Virus record (IMG/VR): IMGVR_UViG_3300030380_004138
Coordinates: 1 to 29,206 of that record
Source of the DNA: a virus
DNA length: 29,206 nt
Strand: one strand, 5' to 3'
Shown: piece by piece, positions 89 through 20,129 of the stretch
Layout: the number at the start of each line of letters is the position of its first letter
How positions within the stretch are numbered: the first letter of the stretch is position 1
Made by a program: the position numbers and the translations under genes
Notes under the pieces: generated by a model
What the model was told of the DNA's origin: nothing
Databases searched by the model: none
Seen by the model: the letters and a program-made list of their open reading frames with translations, nothing else

Positions 89-3000
89 TTATTTAAAAGT
101 TCCACCTTTAAATTTTTTGCCTTTAAACGTTTTACGTTTACTTTTTCTTTTTTGATTTGCTTTATTTATTTTAATTTTTTCTTTAGCTTCTATTACAGCT
201 TCACTATCACCTAAACCTAAACTCCAAGTTGTGTAACCGCTAAAAAACATTACTCTTTGAAAGTTAGTGTAGTCTTTATCAAGAGCATTACGCATATTTA
301 TGCTTTTTTGATATAATCTGTTTGCTGGAAAATTAGTTAAAGCTTGCGTGTAATTAGTTACAGCTGACCATTGTGGATTATCAGCTTGAAAAGTCTCCAT
401 TTCACTTATAACATTTTCATTATAATTAAGTGTTTTTTCAGCATTAACTATTTGCCTAGCTTTAATACCCACAACAGGTGAAAAGTTTAATAATTCCATT
501 ATAACAGCGCTTTCATCCTTGTTGTATCCTTTTTCTCTTTGTTCTTTGAACTTTATAATAGTATTTTTTAAAGTAGAAGCAACAGCACCATATATACCAG
601 CGCCTCGTAATATAGAGTCAATACTACCTTGTATAACTCTTTCCCTTTTCTTTAATACTTGATCTTCGTCTTCATCGTCATCAAACATAACAGCAAATAA
701 AGCTGTTTGTAAACTATAGAATATAACATTTTGTATACCACCATAGTATAGTATTTTAGATAAATTACCTAAATCACTTTGAGTGTTACTAGTATAAGGT
801 GGAGATATTCTTCTATTTTTAATATCTAACGCGGCTTTTTTAATTATTCTATTGTACTGTGACGTAATATTTTGAAAGTTTAACACTAACTTACCTATCC
901 AACTAGCTTGTTGTTGTGATGTCATATCAGGCCTTGATGACTGCTGAGTTGATTGTGTTAAATCTTGAAAGTCTGTAAAAGCTTTAGCTTCTGCCTCTTT
1001 TTTACTTAAACCATCTTTTACATATTTATTAATTCTGTTTCTGTAAAAAGTAGCACCACCTGTAGCAATTGCAATGTTATCACCAATTTGCGTAGGTAAA
1101 AAACCTAACTTTAAAAGATAACTTATAGCTACTTTAGTTGGGTTTTTAGATCCAGCTACAGCTTGTGCAAGATCGTTACCATTAATATCAGTACCAATAC
1201 CACCTCTTCTTTGTTTTAACATATCAGAGTTAAATATAAAAGCAAAATCTTGCCAATATTGTTTTTGATTAGCAAAAGCTTTAGCAGCAGCAAACATATT
1301 ATTATCAGCAAAATTAATATAGTTAACAATAGACATTTGCTGTAATATTGCAGATCTAACATTAAAGAACATTACTGTACCTACAGAACCGTTTAAATAG
1401 TTCATAAACTTGTTTGTTGTAGCATGTTGACCTTTTGGTCTATTAATACCAGTACCAATTCTATACAACATGTCTTCTAATGCGCTTTTAAAATCAGCAC
1501 CATAAGCAGCTTCAATTTTATTTAAATTTTCTTCAGAAAATAGTATTTCAGCATTTTCATTAAATTCAGTAAAGTACTTTGCTCTACCAACTTTACCAGT
1601 GGCGTCTATTAAATCTGTTTTTATGTTACCACCTTCCCATCCTTTACCTGGCTCTACATATGTTTCTTGTTTAGATATAATATCTACTTGGTCTGCATAA
1701 TTTCTTAAATTAGCATCATTAACAACTAAGTCTACTAAATTATTTTGATCTGTAGGTGATAAACCTGGTATATCGTGACCATGTTTGTTCCATAAATAAA
1801 CTCTTATAGCATCTTCAAAAGTAAAATCACCATCTGGTGTTTTCTTTGTTAACTTGTTTTTTATATCAGAAAACTCTTTGTTTAAAGCCTTATAATCATT
1901 TGCTATAGCTTGTTTAGCTGTATCTATTTCTCTATACGCTCTATTTAAAGGTCTAACTAAAGCTTGTTCAAAAAAGTCTCTGTGACTATCACCTTGCTTG
2001 CCTTTACCCATAAAGTTATATAATAAGCCTATAAAGTCTTCATGTGAAGGCGGTATAAAAAATCTAAACTTACCTTTACTTTCGCCACGTTTTCTAGCTT
2101 TAATATCTGAAAAACGCTTTTGAGTTTCAATACCAGTAACTTCTTCTAATATATCATTAAACTTATTGTTCATTGATTCGCTAAACTTAACTTTAGCTTG
2201 AACAGCTTTACCTTTAATATCAAGTTGATTAAAAACATTTTGTACAGCAGTAACGTTTTGCATAGCATCATCAACAAAATACATGTCATTATAACCTTCG
2301 TTAGCATATTTATCAAGTACCCACATAGCTTTTGCTTCACCAGTACTATCACCTAAACCTGTAATATTTTCTAAAGGTATGTTAACACCTTCTGATTTTA
2401 ACCACTCGTGTATTGCGGTTTGACTTTCAGGTGCTCTAGCTGTAAGTATAAATACGTTTTTAGGTCCATATTTTTTAATTTGATTTTTCATTTTTTGTAA
2501 TAAAGGACCAGGTTTGCCTTTTGTTACTCTATTAAAATCAGTAAAATCAAACTCATAACCTTGTTCTTTTAGTGTTTCGCCTACAAGTGGCCATTCATTA
2601 GAAGGTATTTTCTCTGTTATATTACCTTTTTTAGCTATTACAAAATTTTCACTTACACCTACAGTTTCGTCAAAATCAAATATACTAGCTCCTTTTGATT
2701 TAGAATAACTAGCAACTTTTTTTCTTGAAGATTTAATTATATTTTCACCAACAGTTTTTAGTTTTGGTTTAATATTTTTTACTTCAATATTTTTATTTCC
2801 AGATTTATTTATTAAACTAACGTTTTGTTTTTGAAAAAACAAAGAATTAAGTTGAGGTTCTACTCTAACAGAAATAGTTCTATGTGTACCTGCTTTATTT
2901 TTACGACCAAAAGAAACTCTTGCTGTTAAAGCAATAGGAACATTTTGATCTGAAAAATTATTTAAACCTTCTAACTGTAAATCAGATTCATTGCTCATTG

Positions 3001-6000
3001 CAAACATACCTGCATTACCCATGTCTATAGCGTGACTAGGTTTTAAACTACCATCTTTACCTTTTTTTTGTTGATAAGAATTAGCTACATCGGCAGTAGT
3101 TATAAACTCTATAGAGTTGTACATGTCTAAATGTATACCTTTACTTTTTATTAAATCAACAGCTTCTAAAGTAAATTGTAAATTACCAAACTGAGTGTAT
3201 CTATAGCCATCTTTGCCAATTGTTTTTTCAACAGCGTTTATCATTTTTTCAAAAACTTTGTTTGAGTTTTTAATTAATAAACTTTCTTTTTTGTTATAGT
3301 TTTCTGTTTCTTCTTTTACAGTACTTTTTTCTAAACCTTTTTTACCTTTATAATTAAAAGTAACTGATATTCCTCTAGCTGTATTACCTTTTATTTCTAT
3401 AGCAAAAACAGTTTTACCATCTTTTGTTACTCTAATGTCAGGATTATTATCTTTTTCAGAAAGTTTTTCAACTACATAACCTTCTTTTGTTAAGCCAGAA
3501 TTTTTAAAAATGTTAGCAAGTCTTCTTTTAGCTATTAATTCGTATTTTCTATAAGTAGGTATTTTTGATTTTATTTTATTTAATTCTTGTATGCTTATTG
3601 CATCGCTACTTATTTCAAATACTTCAGCTTGTCTTTTTAAATATTCATCAATAGCGTGTTTTTTATCTCGACCTTCAATGTTTTTATCATCTAAAAACTT
3701 TTGAAAGTTTTTACCCATAAAACCATCATCTTTACCTTTACCATATATTATATCAATACCTTTATTAGCGTTAGGTATATTTATGCTAAATCTAACACTA
3801 GGATCTCTTTCTATAGCAACAGCTAATTGTTGTAAATCATCTTTAGCTAAAACCTCTCCTTTTAACTCTGCTATATCAGCTCTTTTTTGTTCTATTTCAG
3901 GTTCTTGAGCAACTTCTAGTGTAGCATCATATGTTAAAGCGCCAGATATGTATTTAGCTAATTGATCTTTTCTAGTACCACGCTTACCAGACCTTATACC
4001 TGTAGCAGGATTTATAGTTGGTATATCAAAAAATGATAAAAATTGTTTTTCAGTAGGATTTGCTTTTTCATATAAATTTACTGACTTATCTCTTTTAAAA
4101 CTATTTAACGCACTAGGTGGTAACAATCTTTTTTCTACAGCGTCTTCAACTTCTTTTAATGTTGTTAGTTTTTTAACAAATTTAGTAAACACTTTTTTAT
4201 CGTCAGCAACTTCTCTTTCCATTTGCACTAAATCAGAAGTAAACATAACTTTCATTATAGGCTCTCTAAACTTATTTAAATTACTAACATACTGTTTAGT
4301 ACCTAAAAAGTTTTTAATGTCTTTAAATAAATATAAATTTGCTTCATCTCTTAAATCCCTTTGTATTTGCCTAACAGTTTTACCTGTTTCGTAGGCTCTT
4401 AATAAAGCTTTACGAGCAGTATTTAAAATTTTATTATATAAATCACTATCTGTTTCAATACCTATTTTTCTTCTAAACTCAGATTCAACTTTTTGTTTAC
4501 CTTTAGCTTTTTCAGCTGCTCTTCTAGCCTCTGCTTGTGGTGATATATCTTCTGTTTCAAGCGTTTCTTGTTGTGTGTCTGGCTCTGCTGCAACTTGGAG
4601 TTTAACATCACCTTCTTTTGTTGTTTCACCTATATCAGTAGGTGTTTCTCTTTTTGTTTCTATAGCTAAGTCTCTAGCTGCATCTAATTTAGCAAACTGA
4701 GTATCAGACATAATACGTTCACCAATAGTAATTTCTTTTTTACTATCAGTTTTTCTTTCAGCTTGTGGGTTGTATTTTAATAACCTATCACTAACAGATT
4801 CTATAGTTTTTTGAGTTTTAGCAGGACTCATGCCTAAACTTTTAATATAGTTATTTATAGGTCCGTTATCAAGATTAATAGATCTAAATATACTATTAAA
4901 CTCATTACTTTTTTGAAACTCGTCTTTAGTATAATCTTTACCTTCTGCTTTTAATTTGTTTTTTAGCTTTTGTTCTATTTCGTTTACAGCATCAACAGCT
5001 TTTGATCTAGATGCTTTTGAAGGCTGTTGTACTTCGGTTTCATCAATGTCTTGTAATTTAGAAGACTCTATTCTAGCATCTAATATTTTAGTACCCATGA
5101 GTTTTCCTAACAAGCCTTGTCTATTTATGTTATTAGTATAATTGTTTATAAATTTTACTAAATCTTGTGCTGTTTCTATTTTAACATCTTTTAAACCAAA
5201 ACCTAACAAAACTTCATCAAACTTACCTCTTAACCCTTTTGATTCAGCATCTTTTAAATCTATTTTTTGTTTAGATATTAAATCTGAAAAAACTTCTATA
5301 TACTCTTCTAAAGCACCTTCTTTAATATTACCATTTTCATCAGTATAAAATTTATCTATTCTTTGCTGAACTCTATTATACACGTCTCCGTGGTTTTTTT
5401 GTAAATAAGATTTTAAATCATCTATTAATGGCTTCATAGAAGCATTGTCAGTTTTAAACTGTCTTGAGATCATGTAGTGTAAAAGCTCGTGTCCAACAAC
5501 ATTAGTTGCACCTTCAAGATTAGCAACTTGTTTGTTTATGTATATTTGAGCTTTGCCTTTTTTGTTTTTACCAACAAACATACCATCAGCTTTTTCATCA
5601 AAATTAGTGTCACCTTCTTCTATAAGCTTATCAACTTGTTCTTGGTTTTCTAATATTTTTACTTCTAAATCTTCTCTGTTTATACCTTTTAACTTCTTTA
5701 ATCTTTTTTCAATTATTTCAGAAGCTTTTAACGCTTCTCCAATTATTTTTTCTACAGCAATATTATCAGCCGTGTATTCTTTACCAACCAAATCAAAGTT
5801 TTCTTGTATTAGTTTTAAGTTTTCTTTTTCAGCTTTTTCTTGATTTGTTTCACTAAACTTTTTATTATTTATTATTGCGTTGTTTTCGTTTATTTTATCT
5901 AAGTTTTTAGCATAATCTACAAACTCTTTGTCTGTCATATTATCAAAACTTTGTGTTAAATCTGCAACTTTTTTATCTCTTATTTTAATTAAAGCATCTA

Positions 6001-7111
6001 ATTCTTTTTGTAACTTCTTTTTTTGACTAGGAGTTTTTGCTCTTCTTACATCTCTTATAGTATCGTCTATTTTTTTACCTGTAGCAAAATAACCTTGTTT
6101 CCAATCGTTTGGAGCAACAAATTTATATAAATTTTGTTTGTTTTTGTTGTTAAGCGTAGCAAAAGCGCCACCTTTACCACCTAACATAAAAGCAGGTAGA
6201 GCAGAATTTATTATACCATCCATGTATTTTCTTTTGTCTACCTCGTCATCATACAAAACAACATTACCAGTTTCTTGTATTACAGAGTTTAATGATTCTG
6301 TAAAAGCCTCATGAGCACCACCTTTAAATATATTTTTAAATACACTTTTACCAAAACCTTCAGTATATTCTTTAGCCGCTTTTTCAAGAGCTTTACCGCT
6401 AGCATTAGCCGCTACATCACCTAAACCTCTAAGAAATCTACCGCCAAGAAGCTCTGTACCAGCTTCTGAAAAACCAGCTAATAAAGCATTGTATGTTATA
6501 TCTTCAACAGATTCATCTGGTCTATTTGCTAAATCTTCAAAGTAAGTATTACCAGCAGTAGAAAGACCTAGTATAGCTACACCAGGAGCTCCTGCCATAC
6601 TTATAGCAATACTTGGAGCAGAGCTAGCGGCATATTGAAAGCCTAATTCACCCATTTTACCCCACTCTTTTTCTCTAGCTAAATCAGATACATCTAACTC
6701 TCTACCAGTTTCATCAATATATTTATGAGAAGTAAGCACGTCTAATACTTCTAATTGTTTTTTAGGAGTTCCTGGAATAAACGAAGGGCCAATAATGTCT
6801 CTAACTTTTTTAGCAGCTTCTTGCTCTTCTCTAGAATACCCAGCAAGTTTCATGTATGCAGCATCAGCAACACCTACAACACCAGATTTTATATCTTCTA
6901 AACCAACAATTGCATCTACAAGATATTGTAAACCACGTAAATTAACAGGTGCTGCTATTTTTTTTACTTCACCAACAACTTCAGGTTTTGAGCTACTAAT
7001 AGTAGTTTTTTCACTACCTGATTTTTTTGCATCAGGATACTGTTGTAAAAAAGCCTGTAAATCTTCAGGTTTTACATTAAATTGACCATCAACTGTGTTG
7101 TATAACTCCAT
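89..7111 (-). CDS. Giant multidomain 'polyvalent' internal virion protein: metallopeptidase-like, PD-(D/E)XK-like and HAD-like domains
   Basis: 2340 residues, probably packaged in the virion and ejected with the DNA. In order: a short N-terminal segment; Gly/Ala-rich hydrophobic stretches at about 155-190 and 298-320; coiled-coil-prone Lys/Glu-rich sequence at 345-500; a gluzincin-like zinc site (H541, E542, H545, with E602, E603 or E606 as possible third ligand); a charged linker around 685-880; a nuclease-like motif (P1224-D1225, E1239, K1241) after a helix containing E1191; a HAD-like phosphatase domain at about 1472-1635 (D1479, D1481, T1483; T1557; K1594; D1614, D1615); a long C-terminal region of about 1680-2300 with hydrophobic segments near 1905-1935 and 2121-2143; and a Lys/Arg-rich tail at 2311-2340. 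This mix matches the published concept of phage polyvalent proteins, which are co-injected and act on host DNA or defences. The frame is intact. It lies 4 bases after the 520-aa gene. Domain activities are inferred from motifs only. Confidence 0.75.
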   Translation of the reverse strand: MELYNTVDGQFNVKPEDLQAFLQQYPDAKKSGSEKTTISSSKPEVVGEVKKIAAPVNLRGLQYLVDAIVGLEDIKSGVVGVADAAYMKLAGYSREEQEAAKKVRDIIGPSFIPGTPKKQLEVLDVLTSHKYIDETGRELDVSDLAREKEWGKMGELGFQYAASSAPSIAISMAGAPGVAILGLSTAGNTYFEDLANRPDESVEDITYNALLAGFSEAGTELLGGRFLRGLGDVAANASGKALEKAAKEYTEGFGKSVFKNIFKGGAHEAFTESLNSVIQETGNVVLYDDEVDKRKYMDGIINSALPAFMLGGKGGAFATLNNKNKQNLYKFVAPNDWKQGYFATGKKIDDTIRDVRRAKTPSQKKKLQKELDALIKIRDKKVADLTQSFDNMTDKEFVDYAKNLDKINENNAIINNKKFSETNQEKAEKENLKLIQENFDLVGKEYTADNIAVEKIIGEALKASEIIEKRLKKLKGINREDLEVKILENQEQVDKLIEEGDTNFDEKADGMFVGKNKKGKAQIYINKQVANLEGATNVVGHELLHYMISRQFKTDNASMKPLIDDLKSYLQKNHGDVYNRVQQRIDKFYTDENGNIKEGALEEYIEVFSDLISKQKIDLKDAESKGLRGKFDEVLLGFGLKDVKIETAQDLVKFINNYTNNINRQGLLGKLMGTKILDARIESSKLQDIDETEVQQPSKASRSKAVDAVNEIEQKLKNKLKAEGKDYTKDEFQKSNEFNSIFRSINLDNGPINNYIKSLGMSPAKTQKTIESVSDRLLKYNPQAERKTDSKKEITIGERIMSDTQFAKLDAARDLAIETKRETPTDIGETTKEGDVKLQVAAEPDTQQETLETEDISPQAEARRAAEKAKGKQKVESEFRRKIGIETDSDLYNKILNTARKALLRAYETGKTVRQIQRDLRDEANLYLFKDIKNFLGTKQYVSNLNKFREPIMKVMFTSDLVQMEREVADDKKVFTKFVKKLTTLKEVEDAVEKRLLPPSALNSFKRDKSVNLYEKANPTEKQFLSFFDIPTINPATGIRSGKRGTRKDQLAKYISGALTYDATLEVAQEPEIEQKRADIAELKGEVLAKDDLQQLAVAIERDPSVRFSINIPNANKGIDIIYGKGKDDGFMGKNFQKFLDDKNIEGRDKKHAIDEYLKRQAEVFEISSDAISIQELNKIKSKIPTYRKYELIAKRRLANIFKNSGLTKEGYVVEKLSEKDNNPDIRVTKDGKTVFAIEIKGNTARGISVTFNYKGKKGLEKSTVKEETENYNKKESLLIKNSNKVFEKMINAVEKTIGKDGYRYTQFGNLQFTLEAVDLIKSKGIHLDMYNSIEFITTADVANSYQQKKGKDGSLKPSHAIDMGNAGMFAMSNESDLQLEGLNNFSDQNVPIALTARVSFGRKNKAGTHRTISVRVEPQLNSLFFQKQNVSLINKSGNKNIEVKNIKPKLKTVGENIIKSSRKKVASYSKSKGASIFDFDETVGVSENFVIAKKGNITEKIPSNEWPLVGETLKEQGYEFDFTDFNRVTKGKPGPLLQKMKNQIKKYGPKNVFILTARAPESQTAIHEWLKSEGVNIPLENITGLGDSTGEAKAMWVLDKYANEGYNDMYFVDDAMQNVTAVQNVFNQLDIKGKAVQAKVKFSESMNNKFNDILEEVTGIETQKRFSDIKARKRGESKGKFRFFIPPSHEDFIGLLYNFMGKGKQGDSHRDFFEQALVRPLNRAYREIDTAKQAIANDYKALNKEFSDIKNKLTKKTPDGDFTFEDAIRVYLWNKHGHDIPGLSPTDQNNLVDLVVNDANLRNYADQVDIISKQETYVEPGKGWEGGNIKTDLIDATGKVGRAKYFTEFNENAEILFSEENLNKIEAAYGADFKSALEDMLYRIGTGINRPKGQHATTNKFMNYLNGSVGTVMFFNVRSAILQQMSIVNYINFADNNMFAAAKAFANQKQYWQDFAFIFNSDMLKQRRGGIGTDINGNDLAQAVAGSKNPTKVAISYLLKLGFLPTQIGDNIAIATGGATFYRNRINKYVKDGLSKKEAEAKAFTDFQDLTQSTQQSSRPDMTSQQQASWIGKLVLNFQNITSQYNRIIKKAALDIKNRRISPPYTSNTQSDLGNLSKILYYGGIQNVIFYSLQTALFAVMFDDDEDEDQVLKKRERVIQGSIDSILRGAGIYGAVASTLKNTIIKFKEQREKGYNKDESAVIMELLNFSPVVGIKARQIVNAEKTLNYNENVISEMETFQADNPQWSAVTNYTQALTNFPANRLYQKSINMRNALDKDYTNFQRVMFFSGYTTWSLGLGDSEAVIEAKEKIKINKANQKRKSKRKTFKGKKFKGGTFK

Positions 7112-7115
7112 ATTA

Positions 7116-8678
7116 TTATTTTCTAAAAATACTTGGTGGTAAACTCGTAGGGAAAGTTCTAACTTCTTCTTCTTTTCTTCTTCGTTCTATTTCTTCATTG
7201 CTTAAAGGGCCTTCTCCAGCACCACGCTCTGTACCTGGTGGTACATAAGTAGGTATTTCTTTTTGTTTAATTGCTGTACCTCCAAAATTAATTGGTTTAT
7301 CACCACTTAAATTAAGCTTTTCGTCTAACATAACGTCAAACCTAGTTTTAAATTCACCATTAATAATATAACCGCCTCTTTTTTTATCTGGAGTGTAAGT
7401 ACCTAAAATACCTGCAAAAGGAATAAAATTAAGCACAGCGTTTCTTTGTGTTAGTCTATCTGCTGCTGATTTATATGTTGTTACGTTTTTACCTTTTTCA
7501 TCTTGCAGAGTAAAAGCTATTTGGTCACTACCAAAAGGATTTTTATTTGCGCCTAAAAGTCTTTGCTTACCTTTATATATTTCTAAACCTTTACCATAAT
7601 AAGCGCCAACAGCATTGTCTTTAAAATAATCTACCATTAAGTCTCTATATATTCTTTTGTCTTTTCTTATAGCGTCTATTAAAGAGTATCCATTTTCTGC
7701 GTTTGTGTAAACTTTACCTGCTTTTCTAGCTTCTTCTAATAATGTCATATCTGTTTCATCAATATTACCATCATTATCAAGATCAACACCTCCTAAATCA
7801 ACTAACTCAAAATATATTTTTTCTAACTGACTTTTATCTTTTGATCTACCAGTTAAAACTTCTTCAAAACTATGATCCATACCTTCAAATTTTGCTTTTC
7901 CAGCATTTCTTATTTCAGCATCACTAGTTATATTAGATTTAATTTTATTTACAAAACTATCTACATCTCCTTTCGTTAATTGTTTTCCAGTTTTAGCACC
8001 TGTTTCTTGCAACTCATTAAAATAACCTTGTAAAGTTGTTAAATGCTTAGGATCATAGTTAGTTAAAGCTTTATTTATTTCTGTCATTGTTAGTTTTTGA
8101 TCAACACCAGGTATACTATAAGTTTTAACACCATTTATTATTTCAGACTTTGCATTGTTAGTACCGTTTATATAATCCCCTTGTATAGCCGCAAAAACTT
8201 TTGCTTTTTCATCACCTAAGTCATAAAGTAAGTTACTATTAGCAGCATTTTCGTTCATGTTAACAAACATTTCATTTTCATCCTTAATGCTATTAGCATA
8301 TCTATTTATCTCAGCTCTTAACTTAGATCTTTCTAAATTACCTTTTTTACCTTTACCAAAATCTGTATTTATTTGTTTTAATCTATCTTTAAAACCTTGT
8401 ACATATGTTTCGTGTTGTGATAAAGCTTCTTCATTTGGTGTATTACCTGTTTCTAAAACGTCTAAAACTTTTTTACCTTGATCTGCTATTAAGTCATTAG
8501 TAGTGTTATAATCTGCGTATATGCTATCAAACACTTTATCAATACCTTTTATAAAATTATCAAAGTTTTCTGCTTGCGCTTCATAAATTTTAGACATGTC
8601 TTGAGGTACACCAGCTTGTCCTAATTTAAAGGATGCTGCTACTAAAGACGGATCTGCTTTTCCAAATAATGATGACAT
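7116..8678 (-). CDS. Probable internal virion (ejection) protein with an EF-hand-like loop
   Basis: 520 residues with no enzyme motif that I recognise. The N-terminal half (about 30-330) is mostly helical and charged, as in ejection proteins. Residues 299-310 form an EF-hand-like calcium loop, with D299, D301, D303, G304, N305, I306, D307 and D310 in the expected spacing, followed by an acidic helix. A Gly/aromatic-rich part spans about 355-465, and the tail is Pro/Glu/Arg-rich. It sits between the 296-aa membrane-segment protein and the 2340-aa protein, 4 bases before the latter, so the three are probably made together. T7-like phages carry internal core proteins at this place; that parallel is positional, not based on recognised homology. 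The start follows an A/T-only leader without a Shine-Dalgarno sequence. Confidence 0.7.
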   Translation of the reverse strand: MSSLFGKADPSLVAASFKLGQAGVPQDMSKIYEAQAENFDNFIKGIDKVFDSIYADYNTTNDLIADQGKKVLDVLETGNTPNEEALSQHETYVQGFKDRLKQINTDFGKGKKGNLERSKLRAEINRYANSIKDENEMFVNMNENAANSNLLYDLGDEKAKVFAAIQGDYINGTNNAKSEIINGVKTYSIPGVDQKLTMTEINKALTNYDPKHLTTLQGYFNELQETGAKTGKQLTKGDVDSFVNKIKSNITSDAEIRNAGKAKFEGMDHSFEEVLTGRSKDKSQLEKIYFELVDLGGVDLDNDGNIDETDMTLLEEARKAGKVYTNAENGYSLIDAIRKDKRIYRDLMVDYFKDNAVGAYYGKGLEIYKGKQRLLGANKNPFGSDQIAFTLQDEKGKNVTTYKSAADRLTQRNAVLNFIPFAGILGTYTPDKKRGGYIINGEFKTRFDVMLDEKLNLSGDKPINFGGTAIKQKEIPTYVPPGTERGAGEGPLSNEEIERRRKEEEVRTFPTSLPPSIFRK

Positions 8679-8706: not shown

Positions 8707-9597
8707 TTATCCCTCGCCAAATATACCAGAATCAGCTAAACCTGTTAAAGCGCTAACAAACATTTGATTAGAAGCTTGGTTTTGAGCGGCTCTATTGTAA
8801 GCTGACATTTGCTCTGCTTGTTGTGCTCCTGCAGCCGTACCCATTGTACTACCTAGAATAGTAGCTAGTCTACTCATTTCAGCTTCCTGCACCATTCTAT
8901 CACCTTCTCTTTCTGCTAAATCTGTTTTAAGTTGCATTTGTGCAAGTAAATTTTCTCTATCTATACCTAAAGCTCTTGCTCTTTCAGCAGCTCTTAAGTT
9001 TATTTGGTCTTGCTGAAAAGCTAATTTCTGTTGCTCTGAAGCACCTAACATTTCTTGTCTTTGCAAGTCCATCGCTCCTTGAGCTTGTAATCTTTGGTTT
9101 TGAGCCTCTTGCTGTCCTATAGATGCTGATATTTGTTGGGCTTGTAAAGCACCTTGATTAGCTAATGTTTGAGCTAAAGGAGCTATACCACTACCACCAG
9201 CAGCCTCTCTTAAACCTGACAATATATTAGCTCTTTGTCTAGCTCCTTGCTGTGCTTGAAACTGCGCTTGCTGTTGATTAACAGTTAAATCTTCGAAAGG
9301 ATTTTCACCACCAGCAAAGACATTTTGAAAAGAACGACCAGTTTGTAAAGGTTGAAAATCTGTTTGTAAACTAGAAAAAGGATTATCCATATTAGCGAAA
9401 GGATTTGTTATTTGAAAATCTCTATATGCTTGTTTTTCTTGTTCTAAAATTTCCATTTGCGCTCTTCTTTCTTCTTGAGCAGCTCTAAACTGACGTCTAG
9501 CTTGTTTTCTACCTTTATATGCGCTATAAGCACCAAGTAAAGAAGCGCCTATTTTTAAAGCAACTCCCCAGCCTTTTAATGGTGATTTTTTCTTCAT
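8707..9597 (-). CDS. Gln/Ala-rich internal virion protein with N-terminal hydrophobic segment (T7 gp14-like in character)
   Basis: 296 residues. A basic start (MKKKSPLKGW) is followed by a hydrophobic segment at about 11-27 and then a basic patch (KGRKQARRQFR). The rest is strongly Gln/Ala/Glu-rich, helical and probably coiled coil (about 30-60 and 105-245), with a few Asn-Pro-Phe repeats near 65-105 and a small hydrophobic C-terminus. A short membrane segment with a long Gln-rich helical body is typical of small phage ejection proteins that line or open a channel in the cell envelope. It is the first of three genes at the internal-protein position, 28 bases ahead of the 520-aa gene. The family is assigned from composition and position; a minor structural role elsewhere cannot be excluded. 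Confidence 0.65.
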   Translation of the reverse strand: MKKKSPLKGWGVALKIGASLLGAYSAYKGRKQARRQFRAAQEERRAQMEILEQEKQAYRDFQITNPFANMDNPFSSLQTDFQPLQTGRSFQNVFAGGENPFEDLTVNQQQAQFQAQQGARQRANILSGLREAAGGSGIAPLAQTLANQGALQAQQISASIGQQEAQNQRLQAQGAMDLQRQEMLGASEQQKLAFQQDQINLRAAERARALGIDRENLLAQMQLKTDLAEREGDRMVQEAEMSRLATILGSTMGTAAGAQQAEQMSAYNRAAQNQASNQMFVSALTGLADSGIFGEG

Positions 9598-11504: not shown

Positions 11505-14500
11505 TTATTTACTACTTTCTGTTATTTCAGACCCAACTGAAAATAACTCAACTTTTTCTAAAGAATTATTTTCAAACTTTACATCAGCATAATATCCTAA
11601 TAAGCTAGAAGAGTTTATGTTATTATTTTTTGTAAACAAAATAAACATATCATCAGTAGGACTTATTGGATCACCAAATATAGCTTCGTTAACTGTTACT
11701 GTAAACTCTGTTATTTCAGTTACTACTCCAAAGGCTATAATTTGATTTGGTTGTAAACTATTGTCTACACTTGGATTTGTATTTTGATAATATACAGTGT
11801 CTCCAATTTGTAAAGCGCTATTTATTCTGCTTTCAAACTCCATAACATTTAAAGAATAACTTTTTAAATTACCAATACCTTGAACGCTAGATTCTTCAAA
11901 GCTAGTTAAAGCAGGGAAAGTAGACCTTACATTACCATCCGCATAATTAATTTCTACTAGCTCTTCTCTTTTAGTTCCTTTAATATAATTAAACCATTTA
12001 TTTTCTTTTTTAACAAAGTTTATTAAACTACCTTTTTGCTGATCAGTTTTAAAATCGGTAACGTGCCAACCTTTTTTAACTTCGTGTAATGTTATATAGT
12101 CTGTTACGTTAAATTGACCTGGCAAAGGATTTGATAGTCTTGAGCCATAAAAACCTATGTCTTCGTTTTTAAATAATCTTATTTTTCCTTGCCAAATAAG
12201 TTCGTCATCACTATTGTATTGTAAAACTTGAGTAGTTGAATCACCAGCTAACGTTTCTTCATCTGGAATTTTTTCTAAAACAGTGTTAGTTTGTTCAACA
12301 AGTATGTTAAATTCTATTTCGTTTAAGAAAAAGAATTGGCCATTAAGCTGTGCATCTTCTGGAAAATTAATACTATGTACTGTAGCTAGTTTATCTTTTT
12401 TAAGCGCTTCACTTCCTTCGTAACTTAAAGTGTTGTAAGATTTTATAGAGCTTGGCGCTTCATTTAAAAGCACGTTAAAACTTGAACTAACATATTTATC
12501 AAAATGATTGTTCATTGTTTCATTATAAAAAGCACTTATATTATCAAAACTATCATCAAAACCTTGTGGTATTAAGTTATTATCATTACTATCGCTTCGT
12601 AAAAACTCATAAAAAACAATTACATCACCAACTTGCCAATCACCAGGATTAGAACCTCCAGTCTCTATTCTTCCATAGGCTAATCCTAAAACAGAGTATT
12701 GATCTTCTTTTGACCATAACTTTACATCAATAGCATCATGTATCATAATGTTATTTCTATAAACTCTTACAACACCTATAAAGTCTTGTATGTCAGTAGG
12801 ATTACCTAGAGTTTGTAAAGTATCAACGTGTAAATTATCTATAAATCTTTGCTGATCAAAAAAGAAATATTTACCTGGATTTTCAGGTTGATTAGGGTGA
12901 TCTATATGCTCAACTACTATATGTCTAAAGTAAAAAGTATTTCTTTTAAATTGTGGTAACTTTGTATTATTATCATAATGATGTTGCCACAACCAACCGT
13001 TTTTCATTGTAAAATATTTATTAGCACAGCTAATAGCGTTTTCTGGTGTAAAAGATTTAAAACTAACCCAACTTCTAGTGTTTTCTTTAAACGAAACTGT
13101 TTTTTCGGTGTCTAAAACAGTAATATTATATTCACCTTTTGAATCATCGTAACTACCTATTAGTTTTTTGCTTAGTTTTAAATTATCTTTAAACCAATCT
13201 TTCATACCGTGGTCAGATATAGCTGTTAAACCGTCTTTTGAAAGTCTTATTATAGCTCCTCTAACTTTATCTGCAAAATAAACTCTATAAGATTCTGAAG
13301 CAAAACTTTCAGGGTTTTTAGATATACCATATTCACCAACAAAAGGTCTTGCTTGGCCTAAAACTCTATTTGTTGCTACTAATTGAGGATTACCATCAGC
13401 ATTAAATACAGCATCTTTATTTGCTAGTATTTGCAATACTTTATCTTCACACATGGCTATTAAATCAGTGTCTCTACTGTAAAGTTTTTGTATACTACCG
13501 TAAGTAGGATTTAAGTCTTTAGTTATTTTTTCAGCTGTAATAAATTGATTTAAATTATTAACACCACCAATATCGTTATATATACCAGAATATATTAAGC
13601 CATGCTTTCTATGTTCTTCTTTGTAGTAGTTTGCTGTAGAGTATTCTAAAGTTGTAGAAGCTTTTACTCCGTTAGTTATTTTGCTTAAATTAAAACCATC
13701 TCTAATTCTGTTAGACTCCACTCCATTACCAAAAGAAAAACAGTTGTGCCAATTTAAAATATAAGAAGTTTCTGGGCCATGTAAATCTTCTTCTATATAA
13801 AAACTTGAAGCTCTACTATCAGCATCTATATCAAAATAACCTTTAATTGTTAATCTTACTATAGTACCATCAGGTCTAGTAACATCAAAACTAGAACCAA
13901 CATCTATATATTGGCTGCCAACTAAAGGAAAACTACCAGCAAACTTTAATGCTAGAGTAATAAAAAATCCAGCAGTTCCAACATAATTAGAGTCGTTAGC
14001 AAGAGCTTCATCAGAAGTGTGAAAACCATAACCAGTAATAATAGCTTGATCAGTAAATGCAAACGAAACCGGATTACCAGTATGACTTATATCAGAACCA
14101 AGTGGTATTGCTATTGGCATTGTATCAACAGTTAATCTTAAAGGATGATACCCACTAGCTTCATAATAAATATCTAGCGGCGTATTGTCTTGTGGTTCCG
14201 TTTCCCATATAGCTGGATTAGTAGGAATGTACTCTTCACTTGGTATTTCTTCTAATATTTCTAAATGGTAAACAACTGGCATAATAACTGGCACTGCTTC
14301 TTCGTGTCCAGACAAAGGGTCAAATAGACCAACACCTGTATGCTGTCCTAAAGTTGCAAAATAACTATTAATTCTATTTGCAGAATACTGGCTTAAACCA
14401 TTGTATGTTGGTTGTTCAAAAACTAAAGCTTCGCCAGCATTTGGAGTAACAGAAAACATGCGATGTGCTAAAACTGTTCTAGTATTTAAATCGTTAGTAT

Positions 14501-17500
14501 CTCTAATAGTAGTAATCTGACTTCCAATACAAGGTTGTGCATATCCAGTTAAAAAAACATCAAAATATGCACCTTGATCTTCTATTTTATAAATAATTAA
14601 AGGAGGATCGGTATCAGCTAAATCAGCACCTCCATCTAAAACTTCACCACCATCATTATAACTTGTTAATATCATACCTACTTTAATAGTATGTTGATCA
14701 CCGGTGTTTTCGTCTGCACCTGACAAACTATCAACAGAAACAATACAGCCAGTTGCGTTTGATGCTTGTGCAGCGTTTGCAGACGATTGATTTATTGATA
14801 TTTTTAAACCACCTGGTATACCTCCATAAGCTCCTATTGGATTCCAACCTATAGCACCGTCACCACTACTATTTTGAAACCTTAATCTAGAGTTAGTTGT
14901 AAAGTTTGGAGAAAACTGTTCTGCTACTTGACCAGCCCATAAATTACTTTCCCACCTTTCGTTATAATATGGAAAGTTAGGTATATTTCCACTACTAGTA
15001 CCAAAAGGTAGATCTGAATCAGATCTCCAGCCATCACCAGCATAAATTTCTTGTCTTAAAGGAGCTAAAAGAGAAATGTTAGTATATCTTGGACCATAAG
15101 CAGAAGGAACAGAAGAAAGTCTAGAGCCATCACCCACGGTATGTCTAAGATGACCGTTTAATTGAACACGATTAACAGTATAAACTTCGCTTGAAGGATC
15201 TTCTGTAAACCTAAACTTCATGCCTTCAAAAAAGTTATTCGTAAAATCTGTGTGTCCAGAGTTTGTGTATTCAGGATTTGTAGTTGAATTAATAGAAGTA
15301 ACTCCAGCGTTCCAAAACTCATCTATCATACCAGAGCCATCATACGAAGCGCCATAGCCATCTACATCATCAATAACACCGTTGTCTGAATCGTTTTGTA
15401 TTGATTGATTATGAAAAATTCCACCCCAACTAATATCTATTTGACCATTATAACCATCTGTTTCAACTCCTTTATTAAAATCTGTTACAGCTCCTCTTGA
15501 CAAACCTGTTCCTGCTAAAGGTTGAGAAGCTCCAGTTGAAGCTACGTTTCTACTAAAATCTTCATAGTCTATCGCGCTAGCTCGATCAACGTTCATCCAT
15601 TGAGTTTGTCTAGGATACCAATTATAATACTTGTTTATACCTGGAAGTTTACCTTTGTAAGGTCCAGCATCTATAAACCAGACAGTGTTGTTTACTCTTT
15701 GTCTATCACTCCAACCGTGTTTATCAGCCACTTTATAGTCAGCGTTACCATCAGAACCGTTCCATTTACTACCATCTATTCTATGTTGCATCAAACCACC
15801 ATTTGCACCACCTACACCATATGGATCACCAACAGCCACAGGCCAACTGTATTGAACAGGTCCTGTAAACCAAGTGTATTCTGTATACCAAGCAGCCCCT
15901 AGCTCTGCTATTTGATTTGCAGTTAGACCAAAAGTTGGACTACTAGAAAAGCCAGCAATAGAAGTATAACTATTCGCATAGTCTGTAGCATCGCTTACAG
16001 CAGTATATTGTAAGTTAGGCCAATCTTCACTTGCTGTATCAGAATCTTTACCAGCAGCTGTAGTTTGTTGATAATAAGTTCCACCTGAAGTAAGTTTTTC
16101 ACCAAAAATATATGGCGTATACTCAGCGCCTAAATTACTGTTTATAGTATTGGCATTGTAATTTCTAAAAAACGGCGCGTATCTACCAAAGTCTTTAGCG
16201 TACTCTCCTTGGTTTTGTCCAGTAAAAGCACTAGAGTGAATCTCATCGTGATTACCTAACATGCTAAAAAGCTTTTTTTGTTCTAGTAATCTAAATGTAG
16301 GATTACCTAATGAAGCTTCTAGTTTAGATAAAACTAAATCTTTACCAGTTGAAGAGTCTTTATTTATTTGAACAAAAAACTTTCCATCAAATTTAGACAT
16401 ATTAGATTTTACGTGTTTATAAAACCTAATTTGTATACCATCTTGTATACCTGTTTGAGCTGAATTAAGCATAAAGTTAACATCATCTCCAAGTTTTTCT
16501 CTAGTAAATATAAAATAACTTGCGTCACCATAACCAACACCAGCAGCTACATCAAGATCAGTTGTTATACTACCAATTTTATATTTTTTAGATATAGTAT
16601 TAACAGCAACATCAAAAAATTCAATGTAAAGATCTACTTCGTTAGTATCAATTAAATGAAGTTGACCACCTGTTCTTGCAACTGCAAAAGGATTATATTT
16701 TAAACTAAACTCGTCAATGCCTTCTCTTGGGCAGTCAGTTAAATTAGTTTTAAAAACATCAATAGGTAATACTGCAGAATTATCATGAGTAACTCTTGCT
16801 ACTTGAATTACTTCATCTTTAATAAACTCTGGAGCTTGAGCTTGAATATCTAATATTTTATATTTTGCTTCTTCTTCTACTAATTGATTTGATTCAGCAG
16901 CTTTTTTTAATATTATAAAATCATCAATATTTACTTTATTTATATCAGAAGACGGAAAAGATAACCAAACTCTATCTTCACCACCATCATAATATCTATC
17001 CATCGCTAAATTATAATACTCACCACTTGTTTCTTTTATGAAAAACTTCATATAAGTTAACTCTAAAGGAATATCTGTATTATTAAAACCAATTTTTATT
17101 TGGTTTTGTTTATCAGCATTTACTTTAGATAAAGCTTTAGTACCAGTTGGGTTAGATATTACTGGTGTTTCTCTACCATACTCATCGACAAACACAACAC
17201 CAAGTTGATATTCTCTTAGTGTTTTTATTGATTTTACTGTTGAGCTGTTTATGTCTGTAGTTAAAAAGTCAAATTTAAAATTAGGATAATATTCTTTACG
17301 TGATATAAAACCTCCACCTAACGGTGCATTTTCAACAGTATTTGCAGTTATCAAATTATAACCTTGTTTATAATTACCATAAACTACTCTATTACCTGTT
17401 ATTTCTTGAGCTAAAGCTTTTTTAGGAACATTATCATAAGGTCTTAATATTTGATTTGTTTCTATAACGTTTTTAATTTGCTCGTTAGATATTGTATAAC

Positions 17501-20129
17501 CACCAGGCATATAAAGACCTTGATTGTTTATTTGAACAACGTTACCATCATCCCAGCTACTACCTATAGTGTTAGGCTTTATAGTATCTATGATATATAA
17601 ATCTGGTGATGACTCTTCTTTAAATATTAAATCAACAGCTACAACACCATCTGGAATTAAATCGCTTCTATAGTTTTTTACTTCAATAGAAACGGCTCTA
17701 TTTACCATACCTAAGTTATAACCTTTTTTAGGATTAAAATCAAAAGATCCAGGTAAAAAAGCTGGTTGTGAAAAAGGAGATATAGCTGAATATTCTCCGT
17801 CTTGATATTTATATCTATATGCTATTCTAGGAAATTTAAATTTAAATATTTTTTCTTTATTTTCTTCTTTATCTGCAGCGTATTTTAATTCGTTAAAACT
17901 TGGTGGCGCTGTAGGTGGTGTTCCATTTATATCAATTATTTCAAATAAACATTGTGCATTAGATTGATCTACTCTTTCAAACTTAACTTGAGACACTGAA
18001 AAATTACCTCCACCAGAACCTGTATATACTCTGAATTGACTATCTATATTAGATGCTGGAGATGACCAAGTCCAACCTGCTGGAGTGTAAGAGCCAATGT
18101 TGTCAGGTTCATTAAACGAAGGGTGAAAAGGCTCTAAAACGCAAGTTCTAGTATAAGTACCTGGAGCTTCAAATTTAATTCTAAAAAGGTGCATGTCGTC
18201 AGCCCCGAAACTATTACTACCTGTTGTAGGATGATTGTTAAATCTTGCTGACTCTACTACAACATAAGCATTTCCTTCTCCTGAAAAAGACCCACCTGGT
18301 GGATTTTCTACAGTAACTGTCATTAAGTACTCACCTCCAATTACTAGTTGAGGCATAGACTGTGTAATTATACTGTAACCAGCAGCATCAAAATCTATCT
18401 GTTGATTAGCAGCATTAAAAGTTGGACCGCCAGTTGCAATCCAATTTGTAACAAAACTACCATTACTGGTTGGTGTATTAAAACTACCATTAGTTATTTG
18501 ATCTGAAGGCACGTCAGTAAAATCATTTATGTACCAACTAACTATTCGTGCTTTAACTCTATAATCAGTTATAGGTATACCTGGCGCTTCATTAAAATTA
18601 AGTCCTCCAAACTCTTTAAACAATATAACATCTCCTACACTCCAATTTAATTTAAATCCACTATCTCCATTTATATCAGTTTCTATACGAGAAGCAAATC
18701 TTTCACCAACACTCATTGAAACAAAATCGTGTAAATGGTTAAAAGCACTACCAGGTGTACCTGCAGTACCAAACCAAAAAGAAGAGTTGTTAGCTAAGTT
18801 GTCAGCTCCTCTAACAAACGCAGATCCAGAATCATTACGAGCAACTCTTATAACACCAGTATATGTTTGTGGAACTGAAACTCCATTAACATCTACAGGT
18901 GGTAAATCTGGTCTTTCTGATACTAAATCTATTGTTGGAGCTATAATAGGTTGTTTCTTTATAACTGTTATGTGTTCTTCTCTTATTGGTACAGATAAGC
19001 CTGTTGTTTCGTTAATAAAATTAGTATGAGGTATGCTTGGTCCGTTTAATGCAGGATCATAAGAAGACGTACCTTTTATACATCTATTAATATTTATTTT
19101 TTTAGGCTCATTATTATTATCTGTAAAAAATAACAAATCATCTATTATGTTAATACCAGTTATATGTCTACCATATTCAAATTTTAAAACGTCTCCATTT
19201 GAATCTATTAAAACTGGTGTAACGTTATCTTTTTTAGTGTCGTATTTTAAAATTATATCTACAGCTCTAGTAACATTTACAAGTGATATGTTTTTTAAAG
19301 TTAATGATTTTACAAATTGATTTCCATTACCCATTTCAATAACAAATATCATATTAGGTACAGAGTTATTTAAACTTGCATCAAATGTAAATTCTTCTTC
19401 TAAAACACCATCTAAAGCTTTACGATTACCAAAAGGTCTATAATTAACATCACCACCAGCAAGGCTATGCCCAGCTAAAAACCACTTTATTTGATCACTA
19501 CTTGCGTCATTTCCATTATCAACGTTTTCAAACTCTACTTTTATTCTATAAGTCTCACCATCTACTAAATCTATTTGATGTTGTGCATTTGAATACTGAG
19601 TAGTTTGAATATTAGGATCTGAACTTATGGTAATACCATTTTCATCAGCATTAAAATTAAGCAGATCATCAGGAATATTATAAAACCTACGACCTGAACC
19701 ACCTATTGAAGTATCGTAATTTAAATTTTGGTATTTAGCATTTGTAGAATCAATAAAAACACCTTCTAAAAATAACCATGAATGATGTTTAAAATCACTA
19801 GGACCTGCGTACGCATTATCAGCTCCTGCCTGAGAAGTTTCGTATGTTTTTTGTGAATAAAACTGATTTTTTGTTGATGTTATAAAGTAGTATAAGCTGT
19901 CATTTTTTTCATCAGCAATAGAACCAACACAATAGCTATCTTCATTAATTATACCTTGACTAGTTATAGCGTAGTTACTTAATATGTTTTGTATGGTACC
20001 AACGTCAGAATCTTCAGAAGTTGCAACTTGTATATTTACCGCATCTCTATATTCTCCATTTGGAACAATTCTCTCATCGAGATCTTTGTTCATTTTACCA
20101 TTGGCAAAGTTATGCTTTATTTCCGGCAT
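11505..20129 (-). CDS. Giant nozzle/stabilisation-like tail protein with inserted binding-type domains
   Basis: 2874 residues from 8.6 kb. The start (residues 6-51: NFANGKMNKDLDER, then a VPNGEYRDA motif and a VGTIQNI motif) resembles the opening of podovirus nozzle or packaged-DNA stabilisation proteins in the T7 gp12/P22 gp10 functional class. Propeller-like core strands are seen near 320-350, 765-795 (YRYKYQDGEYS), 895-920 (YDNVPKKALAQEITGNRVVYGNY in part) and about 2175-2330. Segments at about 110-288 and 545-720 read as jelly-roll, carbohydrate-binding-like insertions. A Trp/Tyr/Gly-rich segment at about 1290-1970 has no match I can name. The gene begins 4 bases after the 541-aa adaptor gene. 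No transmembrane segment or peptidase motif is evident. A tail-needle or baseplate-like role for the inserted parts is inference. The reading frame is unbroken throughout. Confidence 0.65.
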   Translation of the reverse strand: MPEIKHNFANGKMNKDLDERIVPNGEYRDAVNIQVATSEDSDVGTIQNILSNYAITSQGIINEDSYCVGSIADEKNDSLYYFITSTKNQFYSQKTYETSQAGADNAYAGPSDFKHHSWLFLEGVFIDSTNAKYQNLNYDTSIGGSGRRFYNIPDDLLNFNADENGITISSDPNIQTTQYSNAQHQIDLVDGETYRIKVEFENVDNGNDASSDQIKWFLAGHSLAGGDVNYRPFGNRKALDGVLEEEFTFDASLNNSVPNMIFVIEMGNGNQFVKSLTLKNISLVNVTRAVDIILKYDTKKDNVTPVLIDSNGDVLKFEYGRHITGINIIDDLLFFTDNNNEPKKININRCIKGTSSYDPALNGPSIPHTNFINETTGLSVPIREEHITVIKKQPIIAPTIDLVSERPDLPPVDVNGVSVPQTYTGVIRVARNDSGSAFVRGADNLANNSSFWFGTAGTPGSAFNHLHDFVSMSVGERFASRIETDINGDSGFKLNWSVGDVILFKEFGGLNFNEAPGIPITDYRVKARIVSWYINDFTDVPSDQITNGSFNTPTSNGSFVTNWIATGGPTFNAANQQIDFDAAGYSIITQSMPQLVIGGEYLMTVTVENPPGGSFSGEGNAYVVVESARFNNHPTTGSNSFGADDMHLFRIKFEAPGTYTRTCVLEPFHPSFNEPDNIGSYTPAGWTWSSPASNIDSQFRVYTGSGGGNFSVSQVKFERVDQSNAQCLFEIIDINGTPPTAPPSFNELKYAADKEENKEKIFKFKFPRIAYRYKYQDGEYSAISPFSQPAFLPGSFDFNPKKGYNLGMVNRAVSIEVKNYRSDLIPDGVVAVDLIFKEESSPDLYIIDTIKPNTIGSSWDDGNVVQINNQGLYMPGGYTISNEQIKNVIETNQILRPYDNVPKKALAQEITGNRVVYGNYKQGYNLITANTVENAPLGGGFISRKEYYPNFKFDFLTTDINSSTVKSIKTLREYQLGVVFVDEYGRETPVISNPTGTKALSKVNADKQNQIKIGFNNTDIPLELTYMKFFIKETSGEYYNLAMDRYYDGGEDRVWLSFPSSDINKVNIDDFIILKKAAESNQLVEEEAKYKILDIQAQAPEFIKDEVIQVARVTHDNSAVLPIDVFKTNLTDCPREGIDEFSLKYNPFAVARTGGQLHLIDTNEVDLYIEFFDVAVNTISKKYKIGSITTDLDVAAGVGYGDASYFIFTREKLGDDVNFMLNSAQTGIQDGIQIRFYKHVKSNMSKFDGKFFVQINKDSSTGKDLVLSKLEASLGNPTFRLLEQKKLFSMLGNHDEIHSSAFTGQNQGEYAKDFGRYAPFFRNYNANTINSNLGAEYTPYIFGEKLTSGGTYYQQTTAAGKDSDTASEDWPNLQYTAVSDATDYANSYTSIAGFSSSPTFGLTANQIAELGAAWYTEYTWFTGPVQYSWPVAVGDPYGVGGANGGLMQHRIDGSKWNGSDGNADYKVADKHGWSDRQRVNNTVWFIDAGPYKGKLPGINKYYNWYPRQTQWMNVDRASAIDYEDFSRNVASTGASQPLAGTGLSRGAVTDFNKGVETDGYNGQIDISWGGIFHNQSIQNDSDNGVIDDVDGYGASYDGSGMIDEFWNAGVTSINSTTNPEYTNSGHTDFTNNFFEGMKFRFTEDPSSEVYTVNRVQLNGHLRHTVGDGSRLSSVPSAYGPRYTNISLLAPLRQEIYAGDGWRSDSDLPFGTSSGNIPNFPYYNERWESNLWAGQVAEQFSPNFTTNSRLRFQNSSGDGAIGWNPIGAYGGIPGGLKISINQSSANAAQASNATGCIVSVDSLSGADENTGDQHTIKVGMILTSYNDGGEVLDGGADLADTDPPLIIYKIEDQGAYFDVFLTGYAQPCIGSQITTIRDTNDLNTRTVLAHRMFSVTPNAGEALVFEQPTYNGLSQYSANRINSYFATLGQHTGVGLFDPLSGHEEAVPVIMPVVYHLEILEEIPSEEYIPTNPAIWETEPQDNTPLDIYYEASGYHPLRLTVDTMPIAIPLGSDISHTGNPVSFAFTDQAIITGYGFHTSDEALANDSNYVGTAGFFITLALKFAGSFPLVGSQYIDVGSSFDVTRPDGTIVRLTIKGYFDIDADSRASSFYIEEDLHGPETSYILNWHNCFSFGNGVESNRIRDGFNLSKITNGVKASTTLEYSTANYYKEEHRKHGLIYSGIYNDIGGVNNLNQFITAEKITKDLNPTYGSIQKLYSRDTDLIAMCEDKVLQILANKDAVFNADGNPQLVATNRVLGQARPFVGEYGISKNPESFASESYRVYFADKVRGAIIRLSKDGLTAISDHGMKDWFKDNLKLSKKLIGSYDDSKGEYNITVLDTEKTVSFKENTRSWVSFKSFTPENAISCANKYFTMKNGWLWQHHYDNNTKLPQFKRNTFYFRHIVVEHIDHPNQPENPGKYFFFDQQRFIDNLHVDTLQTLGNPTDIQDFIGVVRVYRNNIMIHDAIDVKLWSKEDQYSVLGLAYGRIETGGSNPGDWQVGDVIVFYEFLRSDSNDNNLIPQGFDDSFDNISAFYNETMNNHFDKYVSSSFNVLLNEAPSSIKSYNTLSYEGSEALKKDKLATVHSINFPEDAQLNGQFFFLNEIEFNILVEQTNTVLEKIPDEETLAGDSTTQVLQYNSDDELIWQGKIRLFKNEDIGFYGSRLSNPLPGQFNVTDYITLHEVKKGWHVTDFKTDQQKGSLINFVKKENKWFNYIKGTKREELVEINYADGNVRSTFPALTSFEESSVQGIGNLKSYSLNVMEFESRINSALQIGDTVYYQNTNPSVDNSLQPNQIIAFGVVTEITEFTVTVNEAIFGDPISPTDDMFILFTKNNNINSSSLLGYYADVKFENNSLEKVELFSVGSEITESSK

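Follow-up and report, generated by a model that had tools for sequence, protein, structure and literature searches.

The locus poses the question of what kind of protein a phage makes from one reading frame of 2340 residues in which peptidase-like, nuclease-like and phosphatase-like sites appear together, and whether the three sites act as a unit. The window, i.e., the whole stretch of DNA analysed, comprises 29,206 nucleotides (positions 1 to 29,206 of IMG/VR virus record IMGVR_UViG_3300030380_004138). Its giant frame, here P0001, is a single unbroken one, as the first-pass annotation had described it; the strand, which that annotation left out, is minus (Table 1). An origin in assembly error is ruled out by co-linear relatives of similar length.

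Table 1. Features of P0001 and the neighboring genes, with positions in the window and the support for each; residue numbers are those of P0001 unless stated otherwise.
Feature	Position	Strand	Support
P0001, 2340-aa polyvalent-type virion protein, whole ORF	89..7111	-	ATG start, no internal stop; co-linear relatives
Lys/Arg-rich tail, residues 2301-2340	92..211	-	composition count
C-terminal domain, residues 1690-2325, family hallmark	137..2044	-	C1 in 84/88, C2 in 79/88 sequences
HAD phosphatase-like domain, residues 1471-1689	2045..2701	-	conservation, Pfam, fold, PHROG
Imperfect border motif VKFSESM at 1641-1647, where the HAD core ends	2171..2191	-	
HAD motif IV, D1614-D1615	2267..2272	-	invariant
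HAD motif I, D1479-F-D-E-T1483	2663..2677	-	D, F, D, T invariant
Imperfect border motif ASYSKSK at 1467-1473, preceding HAD	2693..2713	-	
Cargo slot, residues 1110-1400, here with PD-(D/E)XK-like module	2912..3784	-	5/88 sequences
P1224-D1225 ... E1239-I-K1241, putative nuclease active site	3389..3442	-	D, E, K invariant over six; model strands
Imperfect border motif SVRFSIN at 1105-1111, where the cargo slot starts	3779..3799	-	
Region B, residues 750-1109, conserved, mostly helical	3785..4864	-	35/88 sequences; model
Zincin (gluzincin-like) domain, residues 480-690	5042..5674	-	conservation, model
E603, inferred third zinc ligand	5303..5305	-	invariant
H541-E-L-L-H545, predicted zinc-binding and catalytic motif	5477..5491	-	invariant; 0.7% of shuffles
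Region A, residues 131-478, with candidate membrane helix 168-186	5678..6721	-	common to Panino, elemo, phi38:1 and phi18:3 virion proteins
520-aa gene, candidate second ejection protein	7116..8678	-	inferred from order; 4 bases upstream of P0001 gene
296-aa Gln/Ala-rich gene, candidate first ejection protein	8707..9597	-	inferred from order
P-loop kinase spans in relatives (giant-frame residues): L009 ~2085-2290, L030 ~2455-2660, L039 ~2845-3075			

The P0001 gene ends a co-directional structural cluster on the minus strand, in which the intergenic gaps are 2–68 bases and the products, in order, are a terminase fragment of 151 aa, a portal of 805, a protein of 398, a capsid-like protein of 497, and proteins of 272, 293, 541, 2874, 611, 296, 520 and finally 2340 aa. 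The terminase, the portal and several of the virion structural proteins are named by PHROGs. By portal and capsid, the nearest isolates are Maribacter phage Panino, the Flavobacterium elemo phages and Cellulophaga phages, with the environmental genome MW202828 also among the nearest; the source of P0001 is a podovirus-like phage related to phages of marine Flavobacteria. Two other members of the cluster are unusual in size or layout. The 2874-aa protein (window 11505–20129) matches phrog_14478, virion structural, over five stretches (414 bits); in phi38:1 and elemo, the genes at the corresponding place are half as large. The 541-aa structural protein (window 20134–21759) is matched by the isolates at its two ends alone (23–540, covered 41–52%, in two pieces), and seems to hold an extra domain of ~250 residues mid-protein.

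Searches with P0001 as a whole give the protein no name: Pfam and PHROGs yielded no match, nor, therefore, one to an RNA polymerase such as the T7-like domain in the giant virion protein of N4-type phages, tblastn against 50,697 phage records yielded none either, and phmmer against PDB sequences produced chance matches only. Relatives are nevertheless plentiful in environmental data. A first scan of IMG/VR found 39 loci and a second, with a profile of the HAD domain, at least 451, while the same profile found two loci in the 84,980 genomes of GTDB. We analysed 80 of the at least 451 loci together with the earlier ones, which after removal of duplicates left 97 distinct HAD-bearing frames; the three sites were examined against ~90 distinct relatives, and domains were mapped in 88 sequences, the window protein counted in. 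P0001 thus represents a new and large family, abundant in environmental phage contigs and without an isolate, to which no Pfam or PHROG match gives a name, and which belongs to the known class of polyvalent proteins. Three of its parts hardly vary in presence, namely zincin, HAD domain and C-terminal domain, the last of which is conserved and has no Pfam or PHROG match, while the cargo is exchangeable. In one relative, L028, the giant frame is broken near the end of the HAD domain (12352–12886) into three overlapping or adjacent frames, by a frameshift, an assembly error or a real break.

Indirect evidence for a place in the virion comes from the N-terminal part. A profile of region A scored 57 bits with Panino and 42 bits with elemo and, in the next round, 54 bits with phi18:3 gp123 and 58 bits with the phi38:1 protein before inclusion of either, against at most 4.3 bits for shuffled controls, the E-values referring to small sets. 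The gene of gp123 (1935 aa) is syntenic with that of P0001, and the protein was annotated from experimental MS/MS proteomics, which detected it in virions; the products of the other syntenic genes, phi38:1 gp101 and elemo gp18, are annotated as structural. All three resemble P0001 in that their gene closes the structural cluster as its largest member and that region A is homologous but, unlike P0001, none shows a HAD or a C-terminal domain. The zincin of elemo gp18 is related to that of P0001 (30 bits). In the phi18:3 and phi38:1 proteins neither zincin nor HAD was detected, so a protein can be part of the virion without these two domains.

In phage T7, gp14, gp15 and gp16 are internal ejection proteins. 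The two genes upstream of P0001 and P0001 itself recall them in their small–medium–giant order at the end of the structural cluster, a likeness of gene order, and the enzyme content of P0001 differs from that of gp16. One relative, L022, has at residues ~20–185 of its giant frame an N-terminal glucosaminidase (PF01832), a T7 gp16-like trait in the form of an N-terminal peptidoglycan hydrolase, which suggests a role in passage through peptidoglycan. Because of the homology of region A to gp123, and of the last place in a T7 gp14-15-16-like trio, the best reading of P0001 is a virion protein that would be ejected with the DNA, as the third and largest of three. The first-pass annotation had placed it among ejected internal proteins; gene order and the homology to an MS/MS-detected protein agree with that position, and ejection itself is what we infer from them. 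A search of the literature on elemo and Helsingorvirus phages, and on HAD domains in ejected proteins, found no direct description. The hydrophobic segments claimed earlier reduce to one modest candidate membrane helix (Kyte–Doolittle 1.64), with weaker ones at 64 and 2125, while the basic tail is clear, with 15 K/R against 4 D/E in the final 40 residues and a net positive charge in every complete relative.

How far the three enzyme-like sites can be trusted depends on the motif. In shuffles of P0001, HExxH arose in 0.7%, DxDxT in 15% and a loose PD-ExK pattern in 39%; as the rates of the latter two are high, the sequence of P0001 by itself supports just the zinc motif. The shuffle rates taken together with the conservation of the zincin, HAD and nuclease residues in relatives lead us, however, to reject a chance origin of the motifs.

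The zinc site is the most secure of the three by this measure. Only five columns are invariant among 24 zincin sequences (18–35% identical to the window protein, except for two at 61%): N526, H541, E542, H545 and E603. The last four are invariant again in the full-length alignment, and HExxH lies upstream of the HAD domain in 82 of the 83 N-terminally complete relatives, the exception being L097, a short frame. An AlphaFold2 model of residues 480–1109 has a mean pLDDT of 74 (about 74–91 in the zincin part) and places strands at model residues 3–8, 31–36 and 42–47, the HExxH helix at 59–73 and the helix with the glutamate at 124–136. Foldseek with the zincin model against the PDB, together with VIA, returned helical-bundle noise with no zincin listed, and against BFVD the sole strong match was an uncharacterised viral protein; the assignment therefore rests on conservation and on the order of secondary-structure elements. 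This order is the one described for the zincins of polyvalent proteins, an HExxH helix with the glutamate on a later helix (Iyer et al., 2017; PMC5512222). A predicted gluzincin-like zinc site, with HELLH where it had first been noticed and a downstream glutamate, is thus solid. A host protein is no likelier a target for it than P0001 itself.

The HAD domain is the conserved core of the family, with a Rossmann-like HAD fold. In P0001 its motifs are DFDET (1479–1483), LTAR (1556–1559) and VDD (1613–1615), and seven residues, D1479, D1481, T1557, R1559, K1594, D1614 and D1615, are invariant in 33 sequences and represent all four HAD motifs (I DxD, II T/S, III K and IV DD). The Pfam family DUF2608, which we take to belong with HAD enzymes, is matched by 33/33 members, and above the cut-off by the window copy (23.2 versus 22.6). 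In a model of residues 1085–1700 with a mean pLDDT of 53, the HAD core mostly reaches 62–85, and VIA aligned model residues 386–560 with many HAD phosphatases at Z 8–10, including Nir2 (10.2), Pnkp1 (9.2) and the 3′-phosphatase of T4 Pnkp (9.1; 125/143 residues, 3.1 Å, 14% identity), values within 1 Z being tied, so that differing HAD subfamilies tie at low identity. Structure prediction has thus given fold matches for the HAD domain and agreement in element order for the zincin, and for the nuclease a model of low confidence that lacks a fold match. The HAD phosphatase-like domain proposed in the first-pass annotation is confirmed.

Its substrate is most likely a nucleic-acid end or a nucleotide, with a Pnkp-like enzyme the foremost, if unproven, candidate. 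Of the 33 HAD members, 27 match PHROG 415 (polynucleotide kinase) with E-values no higher than 0.1 (0.0014 at best, 0.085 for the window protein), while hhalign of the HAD profile against the single T4 pseT sequence gave no signal. A match of the profile to the thiol-disulfide oxidoreductase ResA among PDB sequences covers only 40 residues and was judged chance. In comparison with T4 Pnkp (PseT), the HAD fold is alike, with other HAD phosphatases tied in Z, and the kinase is absent from P0001. Three relatives do have a P-loop kinase inside the HAD domain, at two different positions and with the HAD motifs undisturbed: in L009 and L030, ~200 residues are inserted between motifs I and II, which are 283 residues apart instead of the usual 77–80, and in L039 the kinase follows motif IV.

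The inserted kinases, the Pnkp-like fold and profile of the HAD domain, and RNA ligase genes (PF09414; open frames of 283–292 aa) in three longer related records, those of L015, L019 and L035, could together be taken to point to nucleic-acid repair at entry, in which the HAD domain, with or without a kinase, would mend RNA or DNA ends left by the cuts of host defence systems, and the nuclease would remove damaged or foreign DNA. We consider this unlikely: the kinase is found in just three relatives and not in the window protein, the ligase in 3/32 records, of which the majority may be fragments, and by Pfam the kinases are closer to AAA_33 and zeta toxin (over the cut-off in L030), with weak and mixed matches to PDB sequences that include adenylate kinase and PezT/zeta.

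The third site lies in a part of the protein that behaves differently. Residues 1110–1400 recur only in L003 (L043 being the same contig), L044, L045/L046 and L061, with a diverged segment at the same place in L018 and L028. In most members of the family a different sequence occupies that place, which makes it a slot for exchangeable cargo; in P0001 it holds a nuclease-like module. Over six sequences down to 22% identity, D1225, E1239 and K1241 are three of just 16 invariant columns, P1224 not being among them, and the model, with a pLDDT of about 50 in this module, has PD opening one strand and ExK directly following the next one. The L003 module gives sub-threshold matches to Mrr_cat, Hjc and HSDR_N over the same stretch, and the module profile gives weak matches to Hjc structures. 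In the pattern of D, E and K, and in strand order, the module resembles these nucleases; no PD-(D/E)XK family match exceeded the curated cut-off, and a fold search with the model of residues 1085–1700 had no nuclease among its matches. Hexokinase, FmdE and other Pfam matches of the nuclease set were judged noise. The module is probably a PD-(D/E)XK nuclease. The motif is where the first reading had it, and the invariance of its D, E and K lends support short of proof; the claim is plausible, for a minor module of the family.

This distribution bears directly on the idea, put forward at first, that the three enzymes form a takeover kit that jointly degrades a host protein, cuts host DNA or RNA, and trims the ends at entry. 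All three sites are indeed within one polypeptide with conserved catalytic residues, and Iyer et al. (PMC5512222) allow effector roles for such zincins. The nuclease, however, is absent from more than 90% of the relatives while zincin and HAD stay, and since most relatives do without it, the three enzymes are not a functional unit across the family. With zincin and HAD near-universal and the nuclease in only 5/88 sequences (plus the diverged version in L018 and L028), the kit as a coordinated unit is not supported, and we consider it quite unlikely.

The borders between domains carry a further signal. In the 60 residues that precede the HAD domain, 22/86 sequences have the motif [IVLMFY]-x-[FY]-S-[KR], where shuffles predict 0.9; 40 sequences have it where the HAD core ends (0.34 predicted), and 9/35 where region B ends (0.08 predicted). 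These counts overstate significance as relatives are not independent. L004 has copies reading IMFSREQ, IKFSREQ and VQFSRSL, while the window protein has the motif in imperfect form only. One motif at three non-homologous borders of a single protein is unusual. The pattern suggests candidate sites of self-processing by the zincin; a conserved linker is another reading. Taken further, P0001 would be a self-processing delivery package whose zincin cuts at the border motifs, in the capsid or after entry, and so frees the exchangeable cargo enzyme together with one that heals nucleic-acid ends as Pnkp does, a proposal that we offer as a long shot.

Finally, P0001 could be a structural, tape-measure-like protein forming a conduit for DNA, with enzyme domains degenerate or serving assembly only, as the phi18:3, phi38:1 and Panino structural proteins with region A but no detectable zincin or HAD might suggest, but this is highly improbable given that these domains otherwise change fast, while their catalytic residues rank with the best-conserved positions.

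The account towards which we lean is that of a virion-borne polyvalent protein. P0001 would be carried in the virion and, being the largest in a set of three ejection proteins, pass into the cell along with the DNA; region A, which has homologues in virion proteins of isolated phages, probably serves packaging or membrane passage. The zincin would then most likely cleave P0001 at its FS-motif borders, or else a host protein; the slot, exchanged among relatives, would deliver its cargo, here a PD-(D/E)XK-like nuclease; and the HAD domain, known by its fold, would act as a phosphatase on nucleic-acid ends or nucleotides, in the manner of the Pnkp 3′-phosphatase.

Zincin-like peptidases are the most common domain of polyvalent proteins (Iyer et al., 2017; PMC5512222), and P0001 resembles the proteins of that paper in combining unrelated enzyme domains around a hub zincin, in being encoded in the structural region, and in its presumed delivery with the DNA. 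The relative L030 adds an LPD14-like stretch, below the cut-off, and its zeta-like kinase, above it, both of which are in the polyvalent repertoire. P0001 departs from the known cases in that none of its domains matches a named LPD, and HAD phosphatase is not mentioned in the main text of that paper. The initial assignment to the polyvalent type is upheld by the conservation of zincin and HAD, by the probable nuclease, and by the repertoire domains present in the family.

In this family, then, two near-universal domains, a zincin and a HAD phosphatase, flank a cargo slot whose content is swapped from phage to phage. Should the border motif prove to be where processing occurs, the substrate of polyvalent-protein zincins could be tested directly. 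Virion-borne Pnkp-like activity would, if true, mean repair of nucleic-acid ends at the moment of entry, and should the self-processing package exist, the phage could cope with breaks in nucleic acid ahead of all expression of its own genes.
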